In this document: positions 25,590 to 32,374 of the stretch, one piece after another
Numbering within the stretch: position 1 is the stretch's first letter
Layout: each line of letters starts with the position of its first letter
Origin: Archaeoglobi archaeon JdFR-42
GTDB lineage: Archaea; Halobacteriota; Archaeoglobi; Archaeoglobales; JdFR-42
Assembly: GCA_002010305.1 (NCBI GenBank)
Contig: MTND01000041.1
Span: forward strand, 1 to 32,575
Length of the DNA stretch: 32,575 bases
Direction: 5' to 3'
Program-made: the position numbers and the translations under genes
Notes under the pieces: generated by a model
The model's input: the letters and a program-made list of their open reading frames with translations, nothing else
Database searches by the model: none
What the model was told of the DNA's origin: nothing

Positions 25590-26438
25590 ATGGACATACA
25601 GTTATATACCCAGAAACATAAAACTCTTCCGGGACCCCATATGGAGGAAGGATCCGATCTATATCTGTGGTACGGAAGGGTAAAAAATGGTCAGATAGTG
25701 GATAAAACCTTAAATGCCGAAGGAGAAAATTCTGAACCACTTTCTTTCGATATCAAATCTTTTGCACTTCATCAGAAAATTTTTCAGGATGAGAGGGAAT
25801 ATTACTCAACTCTGAGAGAGCTAATAATTAATTCTGAAGAGATGAAACTGACTCATGCTTTAAAAGAAGAGGATAAATACATAATAGCCCTTATAAAAAC
25901 TCTTGACGAAATTATCAGGGATATAAATCTCCTCAACGAAAAATACAGGGAACTTAAAGATCTGGGGTATGAGGACGAGGAGAACCTGATATTACGTGAG
26001 ATTAAAACAAGGATCAATGGACTGGAAGAACTCAGAGAGATAATCGAAGAAGAGATAAGGGATAAAATGGAGGCTATCGCTCCAAATCTCACTTCAGTCG
26101 CCGGAGGTATAGTTGGAGCACGACTTATAGAAAGGGCGGGAGGACTGGATAAACTGGCCAGAATGCCGGGTAGCAAAATTCAGGTGATCGGAGCAGAGAG
26201 GGCACTGTTCATGGCGCTCAGAAAAAAGAAAAAAGGTAAACCCCCGAAACATGGTGTGATCTACCAGCATCCATACATACGAACCCTCAGAAAAGCCGTT
26301 AGGGGAAAAATGGCCCGTTATTTGTCTTCTAAAATAGCTATAGCTGCAAGGATTGACTGCTTTGGGAAAACAAAGTATAATGAGATTGCAGAACAGGTGA
26401 AACAGCGGTACGAAAACCTGAACCGTGGAAGTGAGTAA
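25590..26438 (+). CDS. nop5: C/D box snoRNP protein Nop5 (Nop56/58)
   Basis: This 282-aa core protein of the archaeal C/D RNP bridges L7Ae-bound RNA and fibrillarin. It has a fibrillarin-binding N-terminal domain, a central coiled coil (about 85-165) and the C-terminal Nop domain: APNLTSVAGGIVGARLIERA, GGLDKLARMPGSKIQVIGAE, then KHGVIYQHPYIR and AARIDCFG. It is short compared with many Nop5 proteins and similar to the compact Archaeoglobus form, lacking the Lys-rich tail. The flpA start lies 2 bp past the nop5 stop, the usual archaeal gene pair. A TATA-like gataaaatttt lies 27 nt upstream. Confidence 0.95.
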   Translation: MDIQLYTQKHKTLPGPHMEEGSDLYLWYGRVKNGQIVDKTLNAEGENSEPLSFDIKSFALHQKIFQDEREYYSTLRELIINSEEMKLTHALKEEDKYIIALIKTLDEIIRDINLLNEKYRELKDLGYEDEENLILREIKTRINGLEELREIIEEEIRDKMEAIAPNLTSVAGGIVGARLIERAGGLDKLARMPGSKIQVIGAERALFMALRKKKKGKPPKHGVIYQHPYIRTLRKAVRGKMARYLSSKIAIAARIDCFGKTKYNEIAEQVKQRYENLNRGSE

Positions 26439-26439
26439 G

Positions 26440-27090
26440 ATGGATGTTAGTTTCGCTGGATTGCCGAATACTTACTTTTTTCTTGCAGGGAATCGTGAAA
26501 TCATCATTACTAGAAGTGAATATCCATCCCACTATGGCGAGAGAAAATTCAATGGATACAGAGAATGGAGAAAAGAACGAAGTAAATTCGCAGTCCTTAT
26601 CGACAAAAGAGTTCCTATCCCCATAAAAGAAGAGAATGTTTTGCTGTATCTAGGGGCTGCAAGTGGAACTACGGTAAGCCATCTGGCCGATGTTCTGAGT
26701 AGTGGAATGATATATGCCGTGGAATACGCTCCCAAACCTTTTATCAAGCTTCTGAAACTTGCAAAGGAGAGGAATAACATAATTCCTCTTTTGAGAGATG
26801 CTTCTCGGCCTGAGACCTACTCCGGAATTGTAGAAAAAGTTGACTGGATATATCAGGATATTGCTCAGAAAAATCAGATCGAAATTTTCCAGAAAAATGT
26901 GGAATTTTTCTTGAAAGAGGATGGATTTGGTATTATTATGGTTAAGGCCCGGAGCATTGATTCCACGAGAGATGTTGGAGAGATATACAATGCGGTAACC
27001 AGAAAGCTCGAAAAAGAATATACCATCCTGAATGTAGTAGAGCTCTCTCCTTACCATAAGGACCATATTGCCATTCTTATCAAACTGTAA
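26440..27090 (+). CDS. flpA: Fibrillarin-like rRNA/tRNA 2'-O-methyltransferase
   Basis: This 216-aa SAM-dependent methyltransferase is guided by C/D box sRNAs to methylate ribose 2'-OH groups. Visible are the N-terminal beta domain (GERKFNGYREWRKERSKFA), motif I VLLYLGAASGTTVSHLADV, VYAVEYAPKP-like IYAVEYAPKPF, DWIYQDIAQKNQ with the catalytic Asp, IIMVKARSID with the catalytic Lys, and the closing Y-K-H-type YHKDH. ATG 26440 gives a normal N-terminus; the GTG at 26425 overlaps nop5. Confidence 0.95.
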   Translation: MDVSFAGLPNTYFFLAGNREIIITRSEYPSHYGERKFNGYREWRKERSKFAVLIDKRVPIPIKEENVLLYLGAASGTTVSHLADVLSSGMIYAVEYAPKPFIKLLKLAKERNNIIPLLRDASRPETYSGIVEKVDWIYQDIAQKNQIEIFQKNVEFFLKEDGFGIIMVKARSIDSTRDVGEIYNAVTRKLEKEYTILNVVELSPYHKDHIAILIKL

Positions 27091-27544: not shown

Positions 27545-29170
27545 ATGTCCTTCATTTCCGTTGTTCTACCTGCCTACAACGAAGCGGACAGGATTGAGAG
27601 TACCGTTACCATACTCAGAAATCATTTGCTTGAGCTAGACATGCCTTTTGAGATCATAATCGCTGAAGATGGTTCTCAAGACGGGACAGATATAATTGCA
27701 GATTATCTTGCCGAAAAATATACAGAAGTCATACATCTACATTCGGACGAGAGACTTGGGAGAGGTAAAGCCCTAAACAGAGCATTTTCCAAGGCAAGAG
27801 GAGATATCCTTGTATATATGGATGTGGATCTTTCCACCTCTTTAGACCATTTAAAAGAATTGATTTCCGCCATAAATGAGGGCTATGATATTGTCACTGG
27901 ATCGAGACGATTGAAAGAGAGTATATCCACAAGACCGTTGAGAAGGGATTTTGCAAGTTCTGTTTACAATTTCCTTGTCAGGTTATTTCTTAAATCTCGG
28001 TTAAAAGATCATCAATGTGGATTTAAAGCTTTTAAAAAAGAGGCCATTATGGAAATCCTCCCAGAAGTGAAAGACGATCACTGGTTCTGGGACACAGAAG
28101 TTCTGGTACGAGCCCAGTATAAAGGATTCCGGGTTAAAGAGATTCCTGTTAAGTGGGAACAAGCTCCTGAGACCAAGGTCAATATCTTAAAAGATGCTCT
28201 GGAGATGGGTTCTCAAATACTACGATTATGGTTTGAGAGGAAAAAGGAGCGTCGTAGACGAGATATTATTGTATCAATAGCACTGGCAGCCGTAATCCTC
28301 CTTGGAATGTCGTTTTTCATTGGTGTGGGAAATTTAGGGAAAGTTCTTGCATCAGCTGATCTCCGATTTATATTGCTTGCGTCCTTAGTGTATCTGTACT
28401 CATGGCACATAAGAGGTCTCAGATACCGGTATATTTTCCGAAATATCGGATATGATCCCGGAATTGTATTTCATACAGGAACCATAGTCATCAGTCAAAC
28501 AGTAAACATCATAACCCCAGCCCGAATAGGAGATCTGGCCAGGGCATATATTTTTAAAAGATTGAAAAACATCCCTGTAACCTCGAGTATCTCTGCTCTT
28601 GCAGTTGAACGGATATACGATACTACAGCCATCATGGTGATTGCAGTAATTGCTATGATAGGATTTCGTATATCTCTCCCATCATGGATTTCATCGGCGA
28701 TTATTTATTCTTTTCTTGCCCTGTTAGGAGCTATTTTGGTTATATCTCTGTTTTCCAGCCATGGGTCTATCATAGGCAACATCATGAGAGAGATAAAAAC
28801 CACTGCTTCCCATAGAGAGACCTTTTTTTTCGGTTTCGGAACTTCTCTTGGAATATGGTGTGTTGACATACTGGTATGCTTTATTGTACTATCCGCTATT
28901 GCAGGACTGGATTTCTCCCTCTTACCCCTAGTTGCCCTTGGAGTTACAGTAGCCAATTTGACAAAGATTATACCCATAACTCCTGGTGGCATCGGTACTT
29001 ATGAACTCGCTCTCTCGGCCATTATGAGTCTGATATTGCTCCCAGAAATTGCATTCTCAACAGCTTTGATTGATCATCTTTTAAAAAATCTGATCACTCT
29101 CCTTCTGGGTGGAGTGTTTTTTGTAATTTTCCATCTTCGTCCTAGTGAGGTGTTGAGGGGATCTGAATGA
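27545..29170 (+). CDS. AglD-like fusion: GT2 glycosyltransferase plus UPF0104 (flippase-like) membrane domain
   Basis: This 541-aa protein starts with a dolichol-phosphate mannose synthase-type GT2 domain (about 1-235): VVLPAYNEADRI, IAEDGSQDGT (40-48), LGRGKALNRAF, the metal-binding DVDLS (93-97), GSRRL, CGFKAF and DHWFWDTEVL. Residues 245-535 carry seven or eight hydrophobic segments of the UPF0104/lysylphosphatidylglycerol-synthase-TM family, with the conserved RIGDLARAY and PGGIGTYE. Haloferax AglD has the same fusion and loads the final sugar onto dolichol phosphate for S-layer N-glycosylation. A role in envelope glycosylation is inferred. It overlaps the DUF2298 gene by 4 bp (ATGA). Confidence 0.88.
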   Translation: MSFISVVLPAYNEADRIESTVTILRNHLLELDMPFEIIIAEDGSQDGTDIIADYLAEKYTEVIHLHSDERLGRGKALNRAFSKARGDILVYMDVDLSTSLDHLKELISAINEGYDIVTGSRRLKESISTRPLRRDFASSVYNFLVRLFLKSRLKDHQCGFKAFKKEAIMEILPEVKDDHWFWDTEVLVRAQYKGFRVKEIPVKWEQAPETKVNILKDALEMGSQILRLWFERKKERRRRDIIVSIALAAVILLGMSFFIGVGNLGKVLASADLRFILLASLVYLYSWHIRGLRYRYIFRNIGYDPGIVFHTGTIVISQTVNIITPARIGDLARAYIFKRLKNIPVTSSISALAVERIYDTTAIMVIAVIAMIGFRISLPSWISSAIIYSFLALLGAILVISLFSSHGSIIGNIMREIKTTASHRETFFFGFGTSLGIWCVDILVCFIVLSAIAGLDFSLLPLVALGVTVANLTKIIPITPGGIGTYELALSAIMSLILLPEIAFSTALIDHLLKNLITLLLGGVFFVIFHLRPSEVLRGSE

Positions 29171-31137
29171 TCCTGCTTTTAAAGATTCTGTGGATTTATC
29201 TGTTCATGTATGCCTTAGGTGTCGTGTTCTCTCCCTACCTTGGAGATACAATCAGAAGCCATGTAGCTTTGAGGACCATTGGATGGGTTTTTATAACCTA
29301 CGTCTCCTATTTAACAGCCCATTTCATCCCTTTTCTATATGCTTCCTTTCTCTTTTTCATCCCTATCGTAATCCTGATAGCTATTCGCTCCCCTTCCAGA
29401 AAAGACATAAAGGTATCCCTGATTCCAGAAATCCTTTTTGCCACTTCTTTTGGTGCTTTTCTTTTCATCCGTTATTCTGATCCAAGCATTTTTGGAGCTG
29501 AAAAGTTCATGGATATAGCCTTTATACATTCTATTCTTAGATCAGAGTCTTTTCCACCTCCTGATCCCTGGTTTGCAGGAGGAGATCTGAATTTCTATTA
29601 TTACTTCGGGTATGTGATGGTTTCTCAGCTTATCAGGATAGGAGGGTTAACCCCAGAAACAGGATTCAATGTCATTCTTCCTCTCCTATTTTCATTAACC
29701 ATAACACTGGCTTATGAGATCGGAGAGATGCTATCAGGCAGTAGATGGTACGGAGTGTTGTCAGCTTATTTTGTCGGTATTGCAGGGAATCTGGCAGGTT
29801 TCTTTCATATTATATATAATATCTTAAACAGCATTCCTTTTGATTATACATTTTACTGGGCCAGTTCAAGAGTTATACCCGAAACTATCAACGAGTTCCC
29901 ATTTTTTAGCTTTTTACATGGAGATTTGCATGCTCATGTCATAGCGATCCCTCTGAAACTATTTTTTCTGCTAGTATTAGTGAGCCTATGGAAACACGGC
30001 AGAACTGTAGTCCACTATACTCTCCTTTCATTTCTCATGGCCGTCTTTATCATGACTAACACATGGGATTTTGTAGGAATGGGTTTAACTTTACTGACTT
30101 TTCTCTTATTTTTTGAGCCATGGAAGAGAGCCATGGTAAGTGGGGGGCTTATAACCATAGCTTCTTTGGGTTTAGCGCTTCCATTTTTGATCTCATTTGA
30201 GGGCGGAAGTGATTTTGGCTTCGTGACTAAGGCTTCTCCAGTACTGCCATTTCTTGCAATTTATTTGCCGTTTTTCGTCCCTGCTTTTCTGTATAGTAGG
30301 AAAAGTGTGAAAAAGACTGCTCTCCTCGTATCACTATTAGCGGGAAGTGTGCTGTTCATCATGGGATATCAGATCTTTATTGTTGCTCTTCCTTTGCTCA
30401 TATTAATGTTCCCAAAGAAAACCGACTCAGAACCGGATAAATTTGCCAGAACTCTGTTTTTTTCCGGTCTTATCCTGCTTTTAGGAGTAGAAGTGATTTA
30501 CCTGGACAGCAGACTGAACTCTGTTTTTAAATTATACCTTCAGATATGGGTTCTGTTTGCATTATCAGTTCCTTACATGCTACATAAGATACTCTCAGAA
30601 ATCAGAAAAAGTGAGATGAAACTTGTATACTGGATTACGATTGCATTGATTGCTATGACTGCTTTTTATCCTCCTGTTGCTACATATACAAAAGCCCTTT
30701 CATACCCCATGTACACCCTTAATGGGGCAGAGTTCATAAAGAATTCGTATCCTGAAGACTACCTAGCCATACAGTGGCTCGAGAATTACGCCTATGGTAC
30801 TATACTTGAGTATGCAAGCCCGAGTTACGAATATGGTGGGAGAATATCATCCTTTACCGGCCTTCCAACTGTTATTGCTTGGTACAACCATGAAGTTTTC
30901 TGGAGGAAAAACTCTGAAGAAATCATAGAAAGGATAGATGACGTAAAGACCATTTATAGCTCAGACAATGCAACTCTGGTAAGAGAATTAGCCAGAAAAT
31001 ACAACATCTCTTACCTATATGTTGGAAATCTGGAATTTGAAAACTATTCTGTAAATTTTAGCACTCTATCCAGTGCAGGATTTGAACTGATAAAAACTTT
31101 CGGCAATTCTTCGATCTATAAATTCTCACCTGGATGA
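29167..31137 (+). CDS. DUF2298 (YYY-domain) polytopic membrane protein
   Basis: This 656-aa protein has about a dozen transmembrane segments and the DUF2298 signature: FGAEKFMDIAF, then PDPWFAGGDLNFYYYFGY with the tyrosine run, and FFSFLHGDLHAHVIAIPL with the HxDxHxH cluster. Archaeal and Chloroflexi members resemble GT-C glycosyltransferases in topology, with acidic/His loops facing outside; activity is unproven. The C-terminal 110 residues form a soluble domain (YLAIQWLENYAYGTILEYAS and so on), as in lipid-linked sugar transferases. Translational overlap with the AglD-like gene supports a shared glycosylation or lipid-sugar role. Its 3' end overlaps the converging RibBA-type gene by 22 bp. 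Confidence 0.85.
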   Translation: MILLLKILWIYLFMYALGVVFSPYLGDTIRSHVALRTIGWVFITYVSYLTAHFIPFLYASFLFFIPIVILIAIRSPSRKDIKVSLIPEILFATSFGAFLFIRYSDPSIFGAEKFMDIAFIHSILRSESFPPPDPWFAGGDLNFYYYFGYVMVSQLIRIGGLTPETGFNVILPLLFSLTITLAYEIGEMLSGSRWYGVLSAYFVGIAGNLAGFFHIIYNILNSIPFDYTFYWASSRVIPETINEFPFFSFLHGDLHAHVIAIPLKLFFLLVLVSLWKHGRTVVHYTLLSFLMAVFIMTNTWDFVGMGLTLLTFLLFFEPWKRAMVSGGLITIASLGLALPFLISFEGGSDFGFVTKASPVLPFLAIYLPFFVPAFLYSRKSVKKTALLVSLLAGSVLFIMGYQIFIVALPLLILMFPKKTDSEPDKFARTLFFSGLILLLGVEVIYLDSRLNSVFKLYLQIWVLFALSVPYMLHKILSEIRKSEMKLVYWITIALIAMTAFYPPVATYTKALSYPMYTLNGAEFIKNSYPEDYLAIQWLENYAYGTILEYASPSYEYGGRISSFTGLPTVIAWYNHEVFWRKNSEEIIERIDDVKTIYSSDNATLVRELARKYNISYLYVGNLEFENYSVNFSTLSSAGFELIKTFGNSSIYKFSPG

Positions 31138-32315
31138 TGGAACTCAAAGTTCGTGGAAAACATGTGACCCAGCTTTTCTTTTTTTATTCTTAGATATTTT
31201 ACATTTTCTGGACACGGCTGAACTTCCAGAGGATACCTCACCACTGAAATACCATATCTCTCCAGTTCTTCAATTTTCCATGGGTTATTGGTCATCAATC
31301 GAATGGATTTCACTCCTAGATCCATTAAAATTTGTGCTGCAACGCCATAACTTCTCAGATCTGGAGGGAAACCAAGTTCAAGATTTGCATCCACAGTATC
31401 TTTTCCCTTTTCCTGAAGACGATACGCCATCAGCTTATTGATTATCCCTATTCCCCTACCTTCATGACCAAGCATGTACAGTAAAATTCCTCGTTTTTCT
31501 CCCTCTATCTTTTTCAACGCATGTTCAAGCTGATCCCCACAATCACATCTCAGTGAATGGAACACATCTCCCGTCAAACATTCAGAATGAATTCTAGTAA
31601 GAACTTTCTCTTTCCCCCTTACATCTCCTTTCACAAGAGCCACATATTCGTTCCCATATCTTGTTCTGTACCCTATCGCCCTGAATACTCCATAAAACTT
31701 GGTCGGAAGAGTTGCCTCCACAACCCGTTCTATAAGCCTTTCATGGGCCAGTCTGTAACGAACAAGATCCGATATAGATATAACAGGAATATCAAGATCC
31801 TTCAAGAACTCCATTAACGAACTCAAAGTAACCCTACTCTCAATTTTGGTAAAAAGTCCCACTGGAGAGAGACCGGCCATTCGAGCTATATCTAGAGATG
31901 CTTCAGCAATCCCTGGTTTTTCAAGAACACCAGCTTGAGACACTCTCACAGGAATTACATGTCCTGGAACCACAAGATCTTCAGGAAGGGTCTCAGGGTT
32001 AGATAGAGCTTTGACCGTCTTCAATAAATCCTCCGGGGAAGATCCTTTCGAACCCTTTATATCCACTCCAAAAGATATATCTGAAAGACCATTGGCTGAA
32101 GGTATAAACGGGATTTTCAATCTTCCTATGGTTTCAGGGAGTAACGATACATAAATACGATCGCCATTACGCATCATATTACTCAGAATATCGTAATTAA
32201 CTGTTTCTGCAGGTATAACTAAAGAGAGAGAGTCCATCTTGGATTTTTTTTCCACTACACCGATTAATTTTCCTGATTTTGCACGCTCAATCGCCCTCTG
32301 GATATCAATGAACAT
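31116..32315 (-). CDS. RibBA-type protein: degenerate DHBP-synthase domain fused to intact GTP cyclohydrolase II
   Basis: This 399-aa protein has two domains. The C-terminal half (about 205-390) is a good GTP cyclohydrolase II: RIHSECLTGDVFHSLRCDCG (241-260) with zinc cysteines C246, C257 and C259, GHEGRGIGI, AYRLQ with Y298, and PPDLRSY with D319 and R321. The N-terminal half follows RibB along its length (VIPAE, PGHVIPVR, GVL, LVRYRLAHE). It lacks the DRExEGD acidic motif (KKSKMDSLSL there), the GHTEA His (GIAEA) and the later CE. The RibB half is therefore probably inactive. The product expected is the GTP-derived pyrimidine of riboflavin synthesis. ATG 32315 is set by family alignment and TATA spacing. 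Confidence 0.85.
   Translation of the reverse strand: MFIDIQRAIERAKSGKLIGVVEKKSKMDSLSLVIPAETVNYDILSNMMRNGDRIYVSLLPETIGRLKIPFIPSANGLSDISFGVDIKGSKGSSPEDLLKTVKALSNPETLPEDLVVPGHVIPVRVSQAGVLEKPGIAEASLDIARMAGLSPVGLFTKIESRVTLSSLMEFLKDLDIPVISISDLVRYRLAHERLIERVVEATLPTKFYGVFRAIGYRTRYGNEYVALVKGDVRGKEKVLTRIHSECLTGDVFHSLRCDCGDQLEHALKKIEGEKRGILLYMLGHEGRGIGIINKLMAYRLQEKGKDTVDANLELGFPPDLRSYGVAAQILMDLGVKSIRLMTNNPWKIEELERYGISVVRYPLEVQPCPENVKYLRIKKEKLGHMFSTNFEFHHPGENL
31170..31187 (+). terminator. T-run terminator for the DUF2298 transcript
   Basis: A T-rich stretch with a run of seven T lies about 40 nt past the DUF2298 stop, over the end of the converging gene. Confidence 0.4.
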
Positions 32316-32339
32316 CTTGAATACCAACATCAAACTGAT

Positions 32340-32349
32340 ATTTATACTT
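32340..32349 (-). promoter_or_regulatory. TATA box of the RibBA-type gene
   Basis: On the minus strand, agtataaata is centred about 29 nt before ATG 32315, with aaaa-type BRE bases directly upstream that are part of the adjoining inverted repeat. Confidence 0.6.
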
Positions 32350-32374
32350 TTTGAGATGTATCTCAAAATTGAGA
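32349..32374. promoter_or_regulatory. Candidate operator: overlapping inverted repeats with three TTGAGA half-sites
   Basis: ttttgagat-gt-atctcaaaa (32349-32368) is a perfect 9-bp inverted repeat with a 2-nt spacer. Its right arm is also the left arm of a second inverted repeat, tctcaa-aa-ttgaga (32361-32374). The array abuts the TATA/BRE of the RibBA-type gene, where a bound protein would block TBP/TFB. An RbkR-type riboflavin regulator is a plausible owner, but no regulator gene for it is visible here. Confidence 0.6.

Follow-up and report, generated by a model that had tools for sequence, protein, structure and literature searches.

The window, a stretch of 32,575 nucleotides from Archaeoglobi archaeon JdFR-42 (contig MTND01000041.1), carries a gene for a two-domain protein in which a GTP cyclohydrolase II (GCH II) is fused to a RibB (DHBP synthase) half that has lost its catalytic residues. 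We think it probable that this protein is a monofunctional GCH II that opens the riboflavin pathway on a RibBA scaffold, with the former RibB half kept as a scaffold and RibB itself encoded separately.

The layout of a bifunctional RibBA, with an N-terminal RibB fold and a C-terminal GCH II, was found by Pfam, in the predicted structure, and among the PDB matches (Table 1). DHBP_synthase (PF00926) matched residues 7-187 of the fusion with 109.8 bits, and GTP_cyclohydro2 matched residues 196-361 with 222.2 bits. The fusion scored 257.9 bits with TIGR00505 (GCH II), above the cut-off of 205.85, but only 79 bits with TIGR00506 (RibB), below the cut-off of 177.45; the bifunctional RibBA model PRK09311 gave 413.8 bits and fell below its cut-off of 569. 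The profile scores agree with the residue alignment described below, and both bear out the original prediction of an archaeal fusion in which a dead RibB half is followed by a live-looking GCH II. A gene for a DUF2298 membrane protein (window 29167-31137) is convergent with the fusion gene, and the two ends overlap by 22 bases. Farther away, the Nop/fibrillarin pair (window 25590-27090) encodes box C/D RNP proteins and is ordinary for archaea. In an order-wide comparison, no arrangement of neighboring genes was common to the whole of Archaeoglobales.

Table 1. Positions of the fusion gene, its domains and altered sites, and the upstream elements in the window
Feature	Position	Strand	Details or basis
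RibB-GCH II fusion gene	31116..32315	(-)	399 aa; ATG at 32315, stop 31118-31116
N-terminal half, residues 1-189	31749..32315	(-)	RibB (DHBP synthase) fold minus catalytic residues; Pfam PF00926
Position of loop-1 acidic motif DDEDRENEGD, here EKKSKMDSLS (residues 22-31)	32223..32252	(-)	Residue alignment
Pro-Gly-His, residues 117-119	31959..31967	(-)	Residue alignment
Gly-Ile-Ala-Glu, residues 135-138, replacing G[H/Q]TE	31902..31913	(-)	Residue alignment
Lys157, replacing catalytic Glu174 (E. coli numbering)	31845..31847	(-)	Residue alignment
C-terminal half, residues 196-385, GTP cyclohydrolase II	31161..31730	(-)	TIGR00505 and invariant columns
TATA-like element AGTATAAATATC	32337..32348	(-)	Upstream sequence
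Candidate operator TTTTGAGA-TACA-TCTCAAAA and third half-site TCTCAA	32349..32374	(-)	Layout shared with the rbkR-ribB operon

Thirty-six fusions were aligned with bacterial and intact archaeal RibBAs and with the order's own stand-alone RibBs; E. coli RibB was included for numbering only. In E. coli numbering, the window protein has Cys67 deleted, Thr107 lost, His153 changed to Ile, Thr154 to Ala, and Glu174 to Lys. It keeps Pro134-Gly135-His136, Glu155, and Asp159, and the Arg150 position is basic (Lys). As predicted, the RibB half can be aligned while its DRExEGD motif is gone (EKKSKMDSLS at that position), and the later catalytic Glu is lost, being Lys157 in the window protein. The acidic motif could in principle lie elsewhere in the domain; this would have counted against the original prediction, but the alignment revealed no copy anywhere in the RibB half of the window protein.

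The losses extend over the order. The loop-1 Arg-Glu...Asp pattern, Cys67, Thr107, Thr154, and Glu174 were missing in all 36 aligned fusions, 34 of which have a deletion across the Mg-binding loop 1. The same residues are retained in the stand-alone RibBs, in the other archaeal RibBAs, and in the bacterial RibBAs. The window protein and its counterpart from a sister genome of the same family are less eroded, having retained the length of loop 1 and the PGH histidine, a position taken by Arg, Asn, or Lys in the rest of Archaeoglobales.

Loss of the GHTEA histidine had also been put forward as a sign of inactivity. The histidine is indeed absent from the window protein, which has Ile at position 153, but its loss is not diagnostic: Gln takes its place (GQTE) in every one of the order's 31 stand-alone RibBs, which are otherwise intact, and GQTE is also found in three intact archaeal RibBAs and in the Legionella RibBA. 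M. jannaschii RibB has His at this position. We therefore dropped the histidine as proof of death and argue from loop 1, Thr107, Thr154, Cys67, and Glu174. At the level of aligned residues, the loss of catalytic residues from the RibB half is confirmed as a real observation.

The GCH II half, by comparison of its residues, appears complete and live-looking. The zinc ligands Cys246, Cys257, and Cys259, together with Tyr298 (E. coli Tyr105), Asp319, and Arg321 (E. coli Asp126 and Arg128), were invariant among 34 fusions; all the zinc and catalytic residues expected from the original prediction are present in the window protein. In Streptomyces GCH II variants, the retained tyrosine distinguishes the full reaction from one yielding a formylamino product. 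By that comparison, the retention of Tyr298 argues for the full GCH II reaction.

We surveyed 40 genomes of Archaeoglobales for the enzymes of this step. The fusion was found in 37 genomes, a stand-alone RibB in 38, and both in 35. The frame of the fusion is open in those 37 genomes, and a chance or assembly artifact was ruled out. The stand-alone RibB gene normally adjoins one for an RbkR-like winged-helix/CTP riboflavin kinase; in the two genomes where no stand-alone RibB was found, this kinase gene is missing as well, and the joint absence of the two neighbors makes an assembly gap likely. Neither GCH III nor a creatininase-family ArfB-type hydrolase above the cut-off was found in any of the 40 genomes. 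In three of them (G017, G020, and G034, two estimated to be 99% complete), neither GCH II nor GCH III was found, which leaves room for another opener or for gaps in the assemblies. A further short frame resembling a CTP-dependent riboflavin kinase (G000:C6:74421-74789, about 145 aa, and G001:C224:4470-4799) was seen among the 40 genomes only in the window's family, the G001 match having an internal stop.

The window's genome contains two DMRL-family genes (lumazine/riboflavin synthase), a RibD_C reductase, the kinase/regulator, a stand-alone RibB, and the F420 gene cofH. With riboflavin pathway genes present, an opener is needed, and the fusion is the only one found in this genome. A search for a separate RibB and for the ArfA/ArfB route had been suggested; it located a stand-alone RibB at another site in the genome and returned no GCH III and no ArfB above the cut-off. 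The accompanying statement that archaea usually rely on GCH III plus ArfB proved too broad. Among 296 sampled genomes of this phylum, GCH III was present in 63, GCH II in 61, and neither in 173, both enzymes being found together in one genome (G254). Outside Archaeoglobales, the GCH IIs of the phylum that were readable at full length were intact RibBAs. For the 173 genomes, neither the GCH II nor the GCH III family accounts for the opening of GTP for riboflavin. We found no description of GCH II in Archaeoglobus in the literature.

Named matches to the N-terminal half came from Archaeoglobales, Archaeoglobaceae, Geoglobus, and Ferroglobus, the exceptions being one weak actinobacterial match and one record labeled Bathyarchaeota (L108). 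The latter (MTLR01000162.1, titled Candidatus Bathyarchaeota JdFR-04) encodes an Archaeoglobales-type fusion and is likely a mislabeled or misbinned contig. The window's genome appears to belong to the same order as these relatives but to another family than most of them.

A monomer model of the fusion, built on an alignment of 34 sequences, had a mean pLDDT of 83 and a pTM of 0.82, with both folds present. Most of the dead half exceeded a pLDDT of 90, except around residues 71-80, and the active-site loops of GCH II were predicted with low confidence. The best PDB match of the model was M. tuberculosis RibA2 (TM 0.85, target-normalized), followed by RibBX and many RibBs; the N-terminal half of the model matched solved RibBs with TM values of 0.74-0.89.

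Conservation within the dead half is uneven. Its best-conserved segment comprises the 26 residues 117-142, the former phosphate/His pocket (0.84 versus 0.59 elsewhere), and the linker to GCH II reached 0.89 in the dead fusions as opposed to 0.63 in intact RibBAs. Both values would fit an allosteric sensor in which the former phosphate pocket binds an end product or precursor (FMN, riboflavin, ribulose 5-phosphate, or GTP) and tunes GCH II. The strong conservation of the dead half and the location of this segment would suit either role proposed in the original prediction, a sensor or a dimeriser. The residues of the segment (PGRIFVEE..KE.GVLERP) are unlike those of live enzymes, and a basic residue is retained at the Arg150 position and mostly at that of His136. 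However, the equivalent segment is equally conserved in live RibBs (0.83), so its conservation could be structural, and the window's family has the ancestral PGHVIPVR and not the new motif. We consider a sensor unlikely and regard scaffolding as the most likely role of the dead half. Were the half a sensor, Archaeoglobales would gain enzyme-level feedback atop the transcriptional control of the flavin and F420 branch.

It is far more doubtful that the RibB half still makes DHBP through a rearranged active site or acts on another sugar phosphate. The fold, Glu155, Asp159, and Pro-Gly are retained, but with the Mg-binding loop deleted in nearly all fusions, Thr107, Thr154, and Glu174 gone in every one, and a stand-alone RibB present, activity of this kind would be hard to explain. 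In the M. jannaschii enzyme, mutating the corresponding Thr and Asp residues reportedly lowers or abolishes activity (as cited in PMC5228156).

In trees of both halves, the dead fusions grouped in one clade, to which none of the other archaeal RibBAs belonged. The donor was left unplaced because the bacterial sampling was small (seven bacterial RibBAs) and long branches meet. A GCH II match in genome G071 (L067) is joined to an unrelated N terminus, and we omitted it from the trees.

Purifying selection acts on the dead half, with dN/dS of 0.05-0.10. Synonymous change was unsaturated in three pairs, whose dN/dS values were 0.095, 0.065, and 0.050 for the dead RibB half as against 0.055, 0.022, and 0.031, respectively, for the GCH II half. 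The ratio of amino acid divergence in the RibB half to that in the GCH II half was 2.7 in the dead fusions versus 1.1 in intact RibBAs. Low dN/dS combined with faster divergence of the RibB half indicates that catalysis has been released from constraint and the domain has not. A relic in neutral decay, the least credible reading of all, would account for the rapid divergence and for the shortening of the half in most of the order but is contradicted by the measured selection and by a frame that is open in every gene-bearing genome, across two families.

The preferred reading, a GCH II-only enzyme with a retained scaffold, can be laid out as follows. A two-domain RibBA, probably bacterial in origin, would have been acquired before Archaeoglobales diversified. 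Its C-terminal half would convert GTP to diaminopyrimidinone phosphate in one enzyme, in place of GCH III plus ArfB. The N-terminal half would have lost its DHBP synthase reaction a single time, in the common ancestor, presumably owing to the prior presence of an archaeal RibB. The folded former RibB domain may hold the dimer together and keep GCH II in working shape, and DHBP would be supplied by the stand-alone RibB of the rbkR-ribB operon. Uncoupled activities would suit an organism that uses the GTP branch for both F420 and riboflavin.

The two transcription units have a candidate operator in common. TTTTGAGATACATCTCAAAA and a third half-site sit directly upstream of the TATA-like box of the fusion gene, and the rbkR-ribB operon of the same genome has the same three half-sites in mirrored order. 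The 12-base form, TTGAGANNNNTCTCAA, occurred at exactly two sites in 2,148,619 bases, whereas the reversed pattern occurred at none. These sites are the fusion promoter (window 32349-32374) and the start of the rbkR-ribB operon (L031, G000:C3:77595-77610). The shorter TGAGANNNNTCTCA was found at nine sites in this genome as opposed to four for the reversed control; thus, specificity is carried by the 12-base form.

Exact TGAGA-N4-TCTCA was present in 26 of the 36 fusion promoters, mostly followed directly by AAAA and the TATA box, and nine or ten of the 36 had no clear operator. Among 31 ribB operon regions, 30 had the motif with at most one mismatch, usually where the rbkR frame begins; the regions searched were so long that random sequence of equal length often contains a match, and the telling feature is therefore the fixed position. 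The 179,618 bases around 18 fusions contained 15 exact sites, 14 of them at a fusion promoter. Two extra 12-base matches in G001 (L157 and L158) lie inside reading frames and were set aside as looking like chance. The product of the regulator gene consists of a winged helix and a riboflavin kinase and passes NF010762. A regulator gene and an inverted repeat common to both promoters point to a candidate RbkR regulon. Since both units have the same candidate operator, an RbkR-like regulator probably governs both the GTP and the ribulose branch. The candidate operator TGAGA-N4-TCTCA is new here, although the motif may already be described in the RbkR literature.

These results suggest how riboflavin and F420 biosynthesis can begin in an order that has neither GCH III nor ArfB. 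They also present an order-wide case in which a fused enzyme drops one activity while the domain stays under selection. With its dead half, the separate RibB, and the candidate operator common to both genes, the arrangement offers a small, testable system for studying the function of pseudo-enzyme domains. Annotation pipelines are likely to label the fusion bifunctional, a label that would be incorrect as regards RibB activity.

The RbkR riboflavin regulator (Rodionova 2017, as cited in PMC8305020 and PMC10746257) resembles the Archaeoglobales protein in combining a winged helix with a CTP-dependent riboflavin kinase and in adjoining ribB; the inverted repeat here is a candidate site for such an RbkR-like protein. 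Archaeal GCH III (ArfA) plus ArfB serve the same pathway step but are unrelated proteins. RibBX of A. baumannii (PDB 6mnz), likewise a two-domain RibB-GCH II-like protein, mirrors the present case: it is a DHBP synthase, and in the alignment the zinc cysteines are missing from its GCH II-like half. Bifunctional RibBA (M. tuberculosis RibA2, PDB 4i14) has the same domain order, both folds, and the GCH II active-site residues, whereas the Archaeoglobales fusion is without the DHBP synthase residues and is accompanied by a separate RibB.

A precedent is the Arabidopsis RIBA3 clade, which has the RibBA architecture and a dead DHBPS half and is conserved over a large clade; AtRIBA3, a RibBA with such a half, is still active as a GCH II in vitro (PMC3509567). 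Judged by residues alone, the Archaeoglobales fusion has the two marks of RIBA3, a dead DHBPS half and intact GCH II residues. RIBA3 is a plant paralogue alongside the bifunctional RIBA1, whereas the fusion is the only GTP-opening enzyme found, and the RibB beside it is an archaeal stand-alone protein. We conclude that the fusion is best described as a putative RIBA3-like, GCH II-only RibBA that has become fixed in an archaeal order.
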